A stretch of 64,000 bases of DNA. Origin: Irpex lacteus (Eukaryota; Basidiomycota; Agaricomycetes; Polyporales; Irpicaceae). Positions 48,260-56,160 of this stretch are shown one piece after another. Numbering within the stretch: the stretch's first letter is position 1; each line of letters begins with the position of its first letter. The position numbers and the translations under genes were made by a program. The notes beneath the pieces were generated by a model. It saw only the letters and a list, made by a program, of their open reading frames with translations. It was not told the DNA's origin and ran no database searches. Location: positions 1,054,001 to 1,118,000 of the forward strand of contig MQVO02000003.1 of NCBI GenBank assembly GCA_001986395.2, in the 5' to 3' direction.

Positions 48260-50359
48260 CTATGGGATGTAACGAAATTCCGGTGTCTGAATATCGCACA
48301 ATGAATAGATATCGTGATCAACCCCACGAACCAAGGATCTACTTAGTGATGATCTCCCAGCCAACGTACCTTATCCGCAAATTCTCTAGTATCAACCGGC
48401 GCATCTCTATCCACAACATTGCCATACTTGCGATCACGCCGTGCATTTTCCATCCTATAAGATATCTGAATTCGACGGTAAGAATTGGCCTTTCAAACAC
48501 TGGCAAGAAATGCCACTCACTGTGAGTACCAGCGCAGCAATGGAGGCAGCAAACATAAGACAGCAGGAGACCGTAAAGCCTTTGTGGTAAAGTGGACCTT
48601 CCGTGGAAGGAAAGAGATGGGTGGCCAGTATAGCGCCACATTGGCCTATCGCCTGGTAGAGGGGAGTGCCAGTGGCCTTCTTCGTCTCCGAGCCCAAATT
48701 ATGTGCATCTATGAAAAATATCTGAGCTAGCGCTTCCTTCAACGGAGCTAAGATGAATTTACACCAAGCAATGATCAACCCGTTGGTGGTGTAGGTCCCA
48801 CTTGTGATCAAGAAAGTCGCGAAATACCTGACGTGGTTGTTGCTGGCGATAGCCGCAAGCAAGGCATACCCGATACCGCAGGTGATAGTAGACCCGACGA
48901 TGAAAAGGCCGCGACTTTGAATTCTGTCGCTTGCCCAGGAGCAGGTGCATGCCACAACAGCAGAGACAGCATATGGCGGGACCGTCATTAACTGCGAACG
49001 TGCATTTGCTGTATTTTGTGCAGTGAGTTTTGGAACGGATGGTGTGTATGAGATAACACGTACAGAAGCCGAAAGTGCTCAAGATGGTGGGAAGAAATGC
49101 TGTTAGAGCGGCCAATGCACAATTGGAGCCAAAGTAGATGACGGCGCCGGCATATACCTGCGCGAATAATATAAGGTCGCTCACTTCAAAAGTAACAGTG
49201 AATGCCGAGAGACTTACACGCCAGTCGTAAAAAGCAGCGACGATATGCCGTTTGTTGAGGGTACGCCCATAATCCGCTCCAGTGCCCCTGTTCATTCTCT
49301 CCAGCTGGAGCTTGCGTTCCCTGTCGTCCAGGAAAGATGTCTCCTCGGGTCGATCGGGCAGTATTTGCGTGACGAGTAAGCCGAGGAGCACAGTAGGTAT
49401 GCCTTCGATGATGAATAGGAGACGCCAGTTCTCGATTGATACGTGGGCGTGTTGCACGCCAAACGCGATGAGGCCGCCGAATGCACTGCGCAATTCTGTT
49501 GGACACGGGTACTAGTAAACCGAGCAAGTCGAGACTTACCCGGCTACGGCAGCGAAACTAGACCACTGTGCCATGCGAAGACCAATTTCATCCCTCGTAT
49601 ACCATAAGGCTATGCATAGTACATTTGATGAGAGTAGCGTAGCAGAGAAAACGACCCACTTACAAAAATAAAGTGGCACTATTTCAAATCGATTTCAATC
49701 AGCGGGCTAGTATTGTTGAGCCTAGGACGCTCACGTACTCCCAGGAGCGAAACCCGCTTCGAACATGCCCAGAAATGCACGACACACAATAGCACCTGCA
49801 GGGTTAAAGGACAAAGAGAGCATCGTGGAAGAGACGCCCCATCCTATCGTCGCACAACCGAGCCATATCCTAGGAGGGAACAGCTTGGAGATGATGATCG
49901 CAGGTACTGGAAAGAGAACCTGTTCAGATGAGCATGGGGGAGACGGTTGTAGGATGGTATTTGAGCTCACGTAGGAGATGAAGAAAGCTGTGTTCGTCCA
50001 GTCGAAGAGATTTCCTGTTGGGTCTCCGCCGAGGACGTCTTGTGGGAACCCTTGCAGTCGAGCATTGCCCAGGTTTGACCGATCCAAGTCTTCGATGAAG
50101 TGATGAGCTATTTGCTTTAAAGGACGTCATCCAACTTACATGCAAAGAGGTATATGATGGATATAGTAGGTATGATCCGCATATCCAGTTTGCGAATGAG
50201 TCTTTTCTCTTCGTCATTCAACGTGATCTTCTTGGCCAGCGCAGGAAGGTCCAAATCAGTTGGCCCGGGAGGCAGTTGGGATTCATCTGAATCCGGCCTC
50301 TCGTTCTGGGTTTCAGCCTGTTTTTCTCTGCAGCTGTCGGTCTCTTCGTAGTTAGCCAT
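48260..50359 (-). CDS. MFS transporter, Dal5/anion:cation symporter type, copy 2
   Basis: Paralogue of the neighbouring transporter. The start at 50359 gives MANYEETDSCREKQAE and a head ending NDEEKRLIRKLDMRI. It has the same signature stretches: DRSNLGNARLQGFPQDVL, GGDPTGNLFDWTNTAFFISY, FPPRIWLGCATIGWG, NPAGAIVCRAFLGMFEAGFAPG, FGVQHAHVSIENWRLLFIIEG, LPDRPEETSFLDDRERKLQLERMNRG and SDRIQSRGLFIVG. The final exon gives PEFRYIP and the stop at 48260. Intron positions match copies 1 and 3, so these are recent tandem duplicates. Like copy 1, its substrate is unknown. It is divergent from Mad3. Confidence 0.9.
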
Positions 50360-51140
50360 TTGGATAGTCCTAGCTAGTCCTGTGGACGATGTTTGCCAGA
50401 GATTCGAGGGGTGAGAAACATGCACATGGTCGAGCTCTGTACAGAATGTGACATCGTAAAGTTCGCCTGGCTCCCTTGGTGGGAAGAGAAGCTCATACGG
50501 GATGAACTGTTGAAGACGAGTGACGTTGTGAGAAGTATTAGATGTTAGACGATCCCCTGCGCAGTCACTTGTAAGGTTTCGAAGACTATCTTTCACCTGC
50601 CGTGTCCGTCAGGAAATGCTGTTCCGATGCCGTGGGCTGGCACCAAGGACACAGAAATCATCGCGATTGTGCCAGTAGCAGGAGCAGCAAGGGAGTGTAG
50701 AAAGGTGGACGGTTAACCAGGCGCGACGTCATGGCATATGTGACCCCAATTATGGTCCACATTGCCACAGAATGCCCATTGATTGCTCCCAGTATCGACT
50801 TCAAGGAACATACACTTGTAATGAGAGTAATCCGTGAGACTCTGCCACTGATACAGCGATCGCAGTTCAAGGACTTACAAAACATTAGTCAAATTAGTGA
50901 CTGTGTATATCAAAATTTCAACAACGGAAGTAAGTGAACCATGCACCTCTTGCATGGCGGTCACAAATTTAAAAGAGAGACATAACACGGACTCGGAAGC
51001 TTTAATCGACACGATCACGTGCATTTCGTGTTCTAATGTTGCGATCAGCTCAGGGTCGTCCTCGAGCTCAAGCTCGTTCTCCGTCCGCCACCCTGACTTC
51101 GGACTGTCACCTGCTCGCTGCCTTTGGGCAACTTGAAGTC
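50360..51140. promoter_or_regulatory. Divergent promoter, MFS copy 2 / Mad3
   Basis: 781 bases between divergent starts. The Mad3 frame is open upstream of its ATG to about 51036 without another usable ATG. No clear elements. Confidence 0.4.
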
Positions 51141-53477
51141 ATGGCCGACAACGACGAGCTCAACGATGCCGAAGATATCGTACCCCCCATCATCGACTGC
51201 GACGTCTTGGAGGCCGCGAAGGAGAACATCCAGCCACTTGCCAAAGGTCGAAGAGCGACGGCACTCTCAGCAATTCTCGCTACTCCACACGCGCAGCGCG
51301 AGAACAGACTCACCGCAACAAGGAGAAGACTGCGTATGAACGTCGATCTTGCGCTAGAAAATGCAGCGCTGTCCGACGACGAGGATGAGGACGAAGAAGA
51401 ATCCCTTGACGAAGACCCGCTCGAGGCATATTGCACCTACGTTTACTGGGTGGTCGAGAACTACCCTCAAGGACATAGCGCGGAGAGTGGACTCTTGGAA
51501 CTGCTGGAGGAGGCCACACGAGTGCTCAAAGACCTCCAGAATGGCAAGTGGCGGAATGACATTCGGTACCTCAAGCTCTGGGTTCTTTACGCGAGCTACG
51601 TGGAGAAACCGACCATCGTCTACAAGTTTTGTTTGGTCAATGAAATTGGTACAGAACACGCTTTGCTATACGAAGAAGCAGCATTGGCATTAGAGAGAGC
51701 TGGCAGGTATGTCACATCGTTATACCCTAGTGCAGACAACTGACATAAGAACATGGTTGTGACACCAGGAAACCTGAAGCAGACGAGACATACTCTATTG
51801 GAATCGCTCGTAAAGCTCAACCGCTCGACCACCTCGAAGCCAGATACCGCGAATTCCAAAAGCGCATGATGACAACCCCCAGTCTACCTTCAGCCACTAC
51901 ACCCTCAACCACAGAGGCCGCCGTGCCTTCTGAAAGCACGCCCGCCATAGGCTCAGGCTCACGCCCTGCACTCGCAGAGTCCGGTGGAACTGCCCGTAGT
52001 ACACGCGTCACACGCTCGGCCTCCCGCCAGGCCGCCGCCGCTGCATCCTCCTCTTCTACCTCCACCACCCCAACTCTCGCGCCTCCAAAGCCCCAGCCAA
52101 ACGCGCGTATAGCCGTTTTCGTAGATGGCCAAGATGACAGTGGCTCTAATGCCCCAGACGACGCGCCATCTGCGTGGCCAGACCTCGGTACGCGCAAGTC
52201 TCGCATAAAGGAGAACGTCAAGGAGGCGACGAAAGCTGCTGGTACGACTCTCAAGCAGGCCGGTCGATCTAGTCGTGTTGCGTCTAGCAGTCGGACTCCG
52301 AAGATTACTGTGTTCAGGGATGAAGAGATGGATGAAGGGGATGAAGAGAATCATCCAGCTACCGACAGCCCTGAGCCACCTCTACCAACTCCGCCAGTAG
52401 CTGTCAAGGTCTCTAAAAGCTCCAGCTCGAAGTCTATTCCTGTGTTCCGTGATGAGGAGCCTGAACAGCCTAAGCTGAAGAACTCAAAGCCTAGTAAGAG
52501 TATCGACGTGTTTCAAGACGAGGAGCCTCAACCTCCTCCGAAGCCCAAGAACGGGAAGGGGCTTGCGGTGTTCCGCGACGACGAACCAGACGACGAACCG
52601 GAACCAGCGCCTCTTAAGAAGGCGGTGAAGAGCTCGAAGAAGGAGAAAGGCAAAGGCATCGCTGTGCTCAGCGACCCGACACCTCCTGAGGCGGGGAGCT
52701 CGAAAGCCGGCAAAGGGATCGCTGTCTTCCGCGACGACTCGGAGGATCCCTCGCCAGTTCAAGAACCAAAGGTGGCAAAGGGGATGTTGGTATTCCGCGA
52801 CGATGACGAACCACGACCTCCTCAGAAGACGAAGAGCGCGAAAGCAGGAAAAGCGGTGTCGGTCTTCCGGGACGACGACGACCAAGCGGGATCGTCGCAG
52901 AAGGTACCGGTGAAGAAGGCCAGACAGGCATCAGCGAAGGGGATACCTGTTTTCAGGGACGAGTTTGAGGGTGACGCCGCGCCTCAGGCTGGGTCTTCAT
53001 CTTCGGAGAGACGCAAGCCTTCCACCTCGAAATTGCCTTCCAAATCCAAATCACCGATCTCTGTTTTCTGCGATGATGAAGTAGAGCCACAGCCACAGTC
53101 GAAGAAAACGAAGGCGCAGGTGAAGGGAGGTGCTATCCCTGTTTTCCGAGACGAAGAGGCTTCTCCTGGTGCAGGCGCTGGAGATATCGAAGAGAGCGTG
53201 GCGTCGCCTACCGGTTCTGCGGGGTTCAAGCCGTTCAAAGACGAAGATGACGAGGTACGCTTTCATCCACCCTTTTTTACCTGTATATGTTACTGACGGC
53301 TTGCAGGGTGACGCACATGCACCGGCAAAGAACAAAGGTCTCGGACTCGGGATACTTGGACAGGGTGCGAGTAGTGGAAGTGTTACGGTAAAGATGAGCT
53401 TGGAGGCGGAGGCGCTGCGTAAGGATCCGTTGAAGAATTATACTGTTGAGGAGAGGACGTCTGCTGGTTCGGCGTAA
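51141..53477 (+). CDS. mad3: Spindle checkpoint protein Mad3 with repetitive acidic tail
   Basis: Mitotic checkpoint component that holds Cdc20/APC/C inactive. Exons 51141-51706, 51769-53254 and 53307-53477 give 740 residues, all phases closing. The N-terminal KEN box (residues 27-29) sits in EAAKENIQPLAKGRRATAL, the typical Mad3 setting. The Mad3/Bub1 homology region follows (DPLEAYCTYVYWVVENYPQGHS ... RYLKLWVLYASYVEKP ... ALLYEEAALALERAGR). There is no C-terminal kinase, so it is Mad3/BubR1-like, not Bub1. The remainder is disordered and contains about a dozen copies of a motif like K-G-I-x-V-F-R-D-E-E separated by Pro/Ser/Lys linkers (from IAVFVD near 52110 to PFKDEDDE near 53250). I see no clear GLEBS (Bub3-binding) motif. 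It lies between MFS copies 2 and 3. Confidence 0.93.
52100..53254 (+). repeat. Coding repeats: about a dozen V-F-R-D-E units in Mad3
   Basis: Imperfect repeat units with variable linkers. Cores seen in order: IAVFVDG, ITVFRDEE, IPVFRDEE, IDVFQDEE, LAVFRDDE, IAVLSDPT, IAVFRDDS, MLVFRDDD, VSVFRDDD, IPVFRDEF, ISVFCDDE, IPVFRDEE and FKPFKDED. Most are preceded by Lys-Gly or Lys-Ser. Codons differ between units, so they are not a recent slippage array. The cores resemble the ABBA motif F-x-[ILV]-[FHY]-x-[DE], with the first Phe usually replaced by Ile, Leu or Met. Confidence 0.9.
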
Positions 53478-54056
53478 CTCGAATATTGCGGTTGGTTTGG
53501 GTTTCTCCTCGCTGCTTCACTTTTTGCTCTGGTTGCTTTTGTTTTCCTGTATGTTTTCTTGAGTTTGGGGTTTGCTAATCCTTATGCTGTTCTCCTTGCG
53601 ATTTAATTGCATAGTTTTGTTTTCTTGTGACCTTATATTTGACTTTAGTTTGGCTGAACTACATAGATGAAGAGGTCTGTCATTACATTACATTCATACC
53701 TGAACCTCAAGCCCATTCTAGTTTTTTTTAATAGGTTTATCGTTTAAAGTTCAAGAATAGCCTTCACGCTCCACGCGTATCCCGCGATAGTTGATGGGGT
53801 ATTCACGAACTGTCATACACTCACAGATAGAGTTCACAGTACCTGCAATAGCCACGAACGTGACACGCGCGTGTATTGCGGCCTTCTCACAACGTCAGAC
53901 TACTCCCCCGTCTTCTTGCAATAGGCCGCTCCCTCATGACCATTCTCCAACTTGGACTTCCCACAACGAGGGGTGGGAGGCATCATGATTGCTCGTTCGG
54001 AAATAGAGCAGCGTCTGGCCATGGCTCAGTACTCCCACTGATACCCTCACAGAACG
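53478..54056. other. Tandem intergenic region, Mad3 to MFS copy 3
   Basis: 579 bases: T-rich 3' UTR of Mad3, then the promoter of the third transporter. No gene seen. Confidence 0.5.
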
Positions 54057-56160
54057 ATGACTGGTACTATCGACGACAATATCCGAAAGCTCGGTGTCGA
54101 GGATGGCAAGTTCGACGTTGAAGATGTACAGGTCGAGCGAGCAAGTTCGAGCCCGTCCTCTCTGAAATGCGCAGAGACCGTCGTCACAGATGAGGAGAAG
54201 AGACTCGTGCGGAAGCTTGATATGCGGATTATGCCCATTCTGAGCATTGTGTATCTTTTTGCGTGTAAGTGGTACTATACCTATTATAACGTCTTGCAGC
54301 CAGCTGAGGAATCGTTCTCTTTCAGATTTGGACAGGTCTAACCTGGGAAACGCTCGTTTGCAGGGATTCCCAGAGGATGTCCTTGGAGGAGACCCGACGG
54401 GCAACCTCTTCGACTGGACGAATACTGCATTCTTCATTGCCTACGTACGTTTTACAGTACATTTTTCTTGGTCTTCGCCTAACTAACCTCGGACTGCGGC
54501 AGATCCTCTTTCCGATCCCTATGACCATCACCTCTAAGCTCTTCCGTCCCAGGATATGGATCGGCTGCGCAGTGATTGGGTGGGGAGCGGCATCTACACT
54601 ACTTTCTACGACCTTCAACCCGGCGGGTGCTATTGTTTGTCGCGTATTCCTGGGTATATTCGAAGCTGGTTTCGCTCCTGGAAGTACGTGAGCATCCTCT
54701 GACGGACACCCTCACATTACTAACGACGTGAAACAGTGCCGATATATTTCTGTAAGTGTCGTTGTGCCTCCGCTACAGTAATCAGGCCCAACTCGTACTG
54801 TCTAGCTTTATGGTATACAAGGGAAGAAATTGGCTTTCGTATGGCCCAATGGTCCAGCTTCTCCGCCGTAGCAGGGTGAGGACATCATTACTTCCGTCGC
54901 GTTATACCGTGTGACTGATAAAAGCCTCTTCAGCGCGTTCGGCGGCCTTATAGCATTCGGTGTCCAACATGCTCGCGTAGCAATCGAAAACTGGCGTCTC
55001 CTGTTCATCATCGAAGGCGTTCCCACCGTGCTCCTTGGTCTGCTCATGATGTGGGTCCTCCCCGACCGACCTGAAGAGACCTCGTTTCTCAACGCGGCAG
55101 AACGCAAGATCCAGCTCGAGAGGATGAATCGCGGGACTAGGGCAGATTATGGACGGACTTTGACTAAGAAACATATCCTGATGGCTTTTCGCGATTGGCG
55201 TGTAAGTCGAGTCCCGTGCGAAGAAGCGAAAAGAGAAGGTCTCTGATGTGTTGATAGGTTTATGCGGGAGGTGTTATATTCTTCGGGTCTAACTGTGCCT
55301 TGGCTGCGCTATCGGCGTTTCTCCCGACTATTTTGAAGACATTCGGGTTTTGTGAGCAAACTCCAAGCAGCTACTTTCCAACGTTCGGAGGCTGAATGAT
55401 GGCATGTAGCGAATGCGCGCGCACAACTGATGACGGTTCCCCCGTATGCGGTTTGTGCGGTTGTCCTTTGCATATGCTGCTATGCTAGCGACAGAATCCA
55501 AAGCCGAGGACTGTTTATCGTCGGTTCTACTATTGCTTCTGGTATCGGATACGCCTTGCTCTTAGCTATTGCGAACAACAATCATGCTAGGTACTTTGCG
55601 ACGTTCCTGATCACCAGTGGCACCTACACTACCATCGGGCTGATCATTGCTTGGTGTACGTGAACAGGTCACTAGAGCTTCGGTATATATACTCACTCAC
55701 ACTATTGCAGACGCTCATAACCTGGGTTCCGAGTCAAAGAAGGCGACGGGCATTCCGATGTACCAGGTCATTGGCCAATGTGGCAGCATCCTTGGCACGC
55801 ATTTGTTCCCTACCACAGAGGGTCCTCGCTACATCAGAGGCTTTGCTGTTTCTTGCTCTCTGATGTTTGTTGCCTCAATCGCTGCTCTCGTACTCACAGT
55901 AAGTCGCTACTTTCAGCGGTATCATATGCATCTCGCTGAAGACACGGTTCGTTGTTAGGTTTCGTACCGGGTGGAAAATGCACGACGTGATCGCAAGTAT
56001 GGGAAGATTTCCGACAGACATGCACCAGTGGACACTAGTGTGCTTGCAGACAAGGTGCGCAACTGATAGCCTAAAAACTCGAATGCTCAGGCTAATAATC
56101 GTGCTGATATTCACGCGAATACCGGTATGGCAGACTCCAGAATTTCGTTACGTCCCATAA
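54057..56160 (+). CDS. MFS transporter, Dal5/anion:cation symporter type, copy 3
   Basis: Third paralogue, on the opposite strand from copies 1 and 2. The start at 54057 gives MTGTIDDNIRKLGVEDG, with a head ending TDEEKRLVRKLDMRIMPI. Shared stretches: DRSNLGNARLQGFPEDVL, GGDPTGNLFDWTNTAFFIAY, FRPRIWIGCAVIGWGAAS, FNPAGAIVCRVFLGIFEAGFAPG, FGVQHARVAIENWRLLFIIEG, LPDRPEETSFLNAAERKIQLERMNRG, SDRIQSRGLFIVG and ATGIPMYQVIGQCGSILGTHLFP. The end is PEFRYVP with the stop at 56160. It has the same intron positions as the other two. It is closer to copy 1 in several places (IPMY, RYIKGF/RYIRGF, RYVP), which suggests inversion after duplication. Confidence 0.9.

Follow-up and report, generated by a model that had tools for sequence, protein, structure and literature searches.

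The MAD3 locus

The window (the whole stretch of 64,000 nucleotides analysed here) carries a MAD3 gene with three exons, 51141-53477, both introns of which are GT-AG. The gene and its features are listed below; the spliced model encodes a protein of 740 aa.

51141-51706, 51769-53254, 53307-53477 (+): exons of the MAD3 gene, 740 aa; spliced model, Pfam, orthologues
51219-51227 (+): KEN1 box, aa 27-29; sequence match, orthologue alignment
51402-51805 (+): Mad3_BUB1_I (TPR-like) domain, aa 88-201, spanning intron 1; Pfam
51962-51973 (+): D-box candidate R-P-A-L, aa 254-257; sequence match
52109-52126 (+): ABBA1 IAVFVD, aa 303; motif scan, aligned with human BubR1 ITVFDE, PDB chain 5lcw_S
52208-52216 (+): KEN2 box, aa 336-338, with a Trp 11 residues upstream; sequence match
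52304-52321 (+): ABBA2 ITVFRD, aa 368; motif scan
52436-52453 (+): array copy IPVFRD, aa 412; motif scan
52502-52519 (+): array copy IDVFQD, aa 434; motif scan
52562-52579 (+): array copy LAVFRD, aa 454; motif scan
52658-52675 (+): degenerate copy IAVLSD, aa 486 (IAVFSD in Irpex lacteus P0001); motif scan, pairwise alignment
52718-52735 (+): array copy IAVFRD, aa 506; motif scan
52784-52801 (+): array copy MLVFRD, aa 528; motif scan
52856-52873 (+): array copy VSVFRD, aa 552; motif scan
52943-52960 (+): array copy IPVFRD, aa 581; motif scan
53057-53074 (+): array copy ISVFCD, aa 619; motif scan
53135-53152 (+): array copy IPVFRD, aa 645; motif scan
53225-53242 (+): terminal ABBA copy FKPFKD, aa 675; motif scan
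53403-53441 (+): conserved C-terminal EAEALRKDPLKNY; orthologue alignment

Two similar MFS transporter genes of opposite orientation flank MAD3, at 48759-50608 (-) and 54059-55246 (+). Pieces of these genes match Pfam MFS_1 below the curated cut-off, and a near-identical stretch of ~40 residues is common to both.

The gene had been predicted to be a Mad3, and this is borne out by the Mad3_BUB1_I match (112.5 bits against a cut-off of 31.4, E 1.6e-32), by the presence of KEN1 and KEN2 and by the agreement of orthologues. The Pfam search of the 740-aa protein gave no match to a kinase domain. By sequence, S. pombe Mad3 (PDB chain 4aez_C, E 5.7e-31) is the best match with a solved structure; among the proteins listed the closest is Irpex lacteus P0001, with 86% identity over 67% of the query, followed by Irpex rosettiformis P0002, with 59% identity over 99% of the query. 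P0001, a public gene model, is without the Mad3 N-terminal domain, and its start is probably mis-predicted.

In 37 aligned orthologues (of 120) KEN1 is invariant, and KEN2 and a D-box-like R-x-x-L are kept as well; R249 and L252 of P0002, also invariant, are taken to stand at the same place as the R-P-A-L candidate of the window protein. Nearly all of the 37 keep a C-terminal EAEALR-DP-KNY element. It may be the MadaM motif reported for basidiomycete MADs (Tromer et al. 2016, PMC5204127).

PF08311 matches were found at two places in the 44.3 Mb assembly: the window MAD3 and one more on the same contig. An ORF with a Pkinase match (44.7 bits) lies ~1 kb on from the second place, which suggests that MAD3 and BUB1 are two distinct genes; the window gene is the BubR1/Mad3-type paralogue of an Agaricomycete. 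The Bub1 kinase-domain ORF (L011 3754-6309, +) has three ABBA-type motifs of its own, FRIFQD, FKPFID and FTPFVD, along with one KEN. MAD3 was found once in the assembly. Near-equal pairs of matches were seen on contigs C37/C147 and C296/C197; they may be leftover haplotype copies.

The motifs of the Mad3 tail

The motif array is real and lies where the original prediction placed it, from aa 303 to aa 680 (52109-53242). It had been described as about thirteen repeats of [ILMV]-x-V-F-R-D-[DE]-[DE]. The number holds, as 12 intact motifs [FIVLM].[ILMVP][FHY].[DE] and one degenerate copy; how many are counted varies with the strictness of the form, 6 copies fitting the predicted one in full, 8 fitting through R-D and 11 fitting [ILMV]-x-V-F-x-D, while the twelfth is F-K-P-F-K-D and the thirteenth, I-A-V-L-S-D, is without the Phe. 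From ABBA2 onwards each motif starts 20 to 44 residues after the one before it, degenerate copy included. The expression [FIVL].[ILMVP][FHY].[DE] matched 11 times in the 445-residue tail; in 20,000 shuffles of the tail the mean was 0.11 and the maximum 3. Genome-wide, the DNA pattern for V-F-R-D-[DE] occurred at 38 places (22 + 16) versus 22 (9 + 13) in the reversed control. Six of these places fall within 0.7 kb in the window MAD3, the next closest being a pair on contig C32 separated by 1.3 kb.

The original consensus, Fx[ILV][FHY]x[DE], has no strict match in the window Mad3; the relaxed ABBA form (I, L, V or M allowed at position 1 and P at position 3), widened for this analysis, gives 12 copies. 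The missing Phe at position 1 had been held against the ABBA reading, a doubt that proved unfounded: human BubR1 ABBA-272 (R-I-T-V-F-D-E) likewise fails the original consensus and still binds Cdc20 when tested in HeLa extract, though less strongly than ABBA-528; a control peptide with Ala at positions 3, 4 and 6 of ABBA-272 showed no Cdc20 binding (PMC5179498). Human ABBA-340, F-T-P-Y-V-E, also binds Cdc20, and the motif is, according to the authors, more degenerate than had been thought (Di Fiore et al. 2016, PMC5179498). The forms of ABBA-272 and ABBA-340 resemble the interior and the terminal motifs of the window protein, respectively; the F-x-P-[FY] form that the terminal copy shares with ABBA-340 (PMC5179498) often ends the motif series in the listed orthologues.

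KEN2 is flanked by the first two motifs. The start positions are aa 303 for ABBA1, 336 for KEN2 and 368 for ABBA2, and the spacing is similar in orthologues (e.g. 310/343/375, 269/299/331, 280/312/341). The human BubR1 cassette has the same order, a similar spacing and an Ile-first ABBA1 (PMC5179498, PMC5204127); after the cassette the window protein has ten intact ABBA copies, human BubR1 one more, ABBA-528. Two Trp are said to define KEN2 (PMC5179498, PMC5204127). Unlike human BubR1, the window protein has no kinase-like domain and keeps only the upstream Trp, at aa 325; with no other Trp beyond aa 295, it lacks the downstream one.

Of the 596 motifs of 121 proteins (orthologues and window), 595 have D at position 6 and all have F or Y at position 4, where the regular expression required [DE] and [FHY], respectively. 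Pro occupies position 3 in 244 of the 596, and in 84 of 233 interior motifs; Pro at this position was described for ABBA by Tromer et al. (PMC5204127). Thus the ABBA reading is sound by form, by place (two motifs flank KEN2) and by conservation in orthologues.

Tandem Repeats Finder reported no DNA array of the repeat's period in 51900-53500; the three short arrays that it did report have periods of 9, 12 and 18. Recent tandem duplication at the DNA level was rejected on this result, and there is no sign of recent slippage. To this extent the original prediction was right. Its further step, that the repeats differ in codons and so have been kept by selection, does not hold, because codon difference shows age, not selection.

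Comparison of cores with linkers is better evidence. The 13 copies of the window protein align one to one with those of I. lacteus P0001, and 76 of 78 core residues are identical as against 264 of 307 in linkers, with 10 more linker residues unaligned (Fisher p 0.0028 over the aligned residues, whose independence is incomplete). Cores differ at two residues, Ile/Val in ABBA1 and Leu for Phe in the degenerate copy; no core residue is unaligned, a one-residue gap beside a core Asp being placed equally well after the core, in an Asp run. Versus I. rosettiformis P0002 the advantage of cores is small (48/76, linkers 139/267). For P0002 to P0005, where copies do not correspond one to one, core identity is 0.63, 0.74, 0.80 and 0.57 versus 0.52, 0.53, 0.50 and 0.46 in linkers. 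Within the 19 proteins with at least seven copies, mean identity of interior motifs is 0.64 (260 pairs) versus 0.57 between proteins (5096 pairs), kinship being uncontrolled.

Copy number in Agaricomycetes

The orthologue set, the best 120 of 241 matches plus the window protein, leans to close relatives, and the length rule of the search excludes proteins under ~407 aa. P0001 was counted from residue 60, and P0059 was cut to 560 residues (fused neighbour); counting only after residue 190 gives 10 for P0001 instead of 13.

By regular expression, all 120 listed orthologues have at least three motifs; absence of the motif, which would have spoken against the original prediction, was seen in none, and copy number varies from 3 to 13. 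The distribution over the 121 proteins is as follows: 3 copies in 4, 4 in 77, 5 in 11, 6 in 10, 7 in 6, 8 in 7, 9 in 3, and 11, 12 and 13 in one each. Among the best 120 of 241 matches plus the window protein, the highest counts are those of I. lacteus (13), the window (12) and Heliocybe (11), and the mode is 4 (77/121). There are a few departures in this list of 120: P0079, P0091 and P0103 have no second KEN by exact letters, in P0065 the regular expression matches nothing where ABBA1 would lie, and P0001 is without KEN1 along with its missing N-terminus.

Mad3 ABBA copy number has changed repeatedly. A tree of 59 proteins, the window protein and 58 of the 120 orthologues, was built from their N-terminal 225 residues; it is weakly resolved, with 19 of 56 inner branches under 80. 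At least eight changes between fewer than seven copies and seven or more are needed on this tree, gain and loss being indistinguishable by such counts. High counts occur at three separate places with SH-aLRT of at least 95: Irpex grouped with Cytidiella, Trametopsis and P0005 (98), Heliocybe next to the 5-copy Neolentinus (99), and Coniophora amid four relatives with 4 copies each (95). The tree does not settle the high count of the Irpex group as separate from those of Panus, Somion, Cerrena and Abortiporus. Another array of short motifs in the checkpoint pathway, that of KNL1, reportedly also changes in copy number, as Tromer et al. are said to have described in 2015; protein and ligand differ from those of the Mad3 array.

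The arrangement had been thought undescribed. It is not: Tromer et al. described ABBA 'repeat arrays' in 2016 in the MAD proteins of basidiomycetes, and also in those of Physcomitrella and stramenopiles (PMC5204127). The basidiomycete arrays agree with the window in protein, motif class, phylum and arrangement. That paper covers 149 sequences; its passage on the arrays gives no copy numbers (PMC5204127). Among the papers listed in searches of a literature that lacks most subscription papers, no report of such arrays was seen besides that of Tromer et al.

Explanations of the array

Among the proteins encoded in the window genome, L003 (PF24807, 216 bits; S. pombe Slp1 as best PDB match) is likely to be Cdc20 and L006 to be Cdh1, and L008 is a third relative. 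Mutations of the human Cdc20 ABBA pocket are R262S and a double one printed as Y179E/I280Q (PMC5179498), the Tyr of which we read, from the alignment, as 279. L003 retains the Arg of human position 262 and the Ile of 280; at 279 it carries His, as does S. pombe Slp1. In the 117 readable of 120 listed Cdc20 relatives Arg is found in 117; 113 have His at 279, and 115 have I, L or V at 280. The loop pattern used for reading left these three letters free.

We regard the window array as a case of the known kind, at its long end, that probably raises the avidity of Mad3 for Cdc20; binding of Cdc20 by the array copies is our inference. The first two copies most likely do the conserved work, at regular spacing, of keeping the checkpoint complex bound to APC/C-Cdc20. 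Copies beyond these, more loosely spaced, would in all likelihood add avidity, as they rebind the same pocket, and could perhaps hold additional Cdc20. The checkpoint complex on APC/C contains two Cdc20 molecules (PMC5179498), each presumably with one ABBA pocket; therefore most copies would not be usable at once. With copy number ranging from 3 to 13 and standing at 4 in most listed relatives, the extra copies are therefore not needed for the pathway as such. The tail of the orthologue P0002 is predicted to be disordered, as would fit a tether for short motifs: in its AlphaFold model (37-sequence alignment) the TPR region is ordered and pLDDT is mostly under 50 from residue 230 on, low confidence being no proof of disorder.

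One could suppose instead that the extra copies are largely neutral, multiplying and disappearing in a disordered tail through slippage or unequal exchange, with only the cassette and the terminal copy of importance. The spread of copy number around a mode of 4 would be expected then, as would the degenerate copy in the window protein, and interior copies resemble others of their own protein slightly more than those of other proteins, as local duplication would give. However, cores differ less than linkers between the window and I. lacteus, whose 13 copies pair one to one, and high copy number is found on separate branches; we hold this explanation to be somewhat unlikely. The same constraint on cores, together with the 12 to 13 copies of the Irpex pair, the most among the 121 proteins (best 120 of 241 matches plus window), could speak for a selected high-valency sink, in which each Mad3 would hold several Cdc20 and arrest would become switch-like. 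The neutral account or plain avidity fits these observations as well, and such a sink seems to us doubtful. Equally doubtful is its extension, by which the tail of the Irpex lineage would be a selected sink, copy number would tune checkpoint strength and such tuning would have evolved repeatedly in Agaricomycetes.

It is very improbable that the array serves another partner, e.g. SUMO or PP2A-B56. The acidic stretch after a hydrophobic core does resemble a SUMO-interacting motif (SIM); however, a SIM expression without Phe at position 4 matches only the degenerate copy (IAVL), and the LxxIxE expression for B56 has no match in the tail. On these results both motifs were rejected as the identity of the tail. 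The Pro found at position 3 in 244 of 596 motifs is likewise ABBA-like and not characteristic of a SIM.

The locus matters less as a new system, the arrangement having been in print since 2016, than as a good test case: Mad3 proteins with 3 to 13 ABBA motifs form a natural series, a ready test of valency versus spindle checkpoint strength.

A Cdc20 loop is changed in these fungi: it reads SGCSDGSIWHHDVR in L003 versus SGSRSGxIHHHDVR in human and S. pombe. SGC-x-DGSIWHHDVR, or a form near to it, stands just after the ABBA-pocket residues in 117 of the 117 readable of 120 listed Agaricomycete-type Cdc20 relatives (P0121-P0240). Co-evolution of this loop with the array was considered and rejected, because the changed form x-DGS-[IV]-W is in all 117 and the list includes species with 4-copy Mad3, e.g. 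Trametes versicolor and Serpula lacrymans (the two lists being compared as wholes). The three unread relatives also show x-DGS-[IV]-W by eye.
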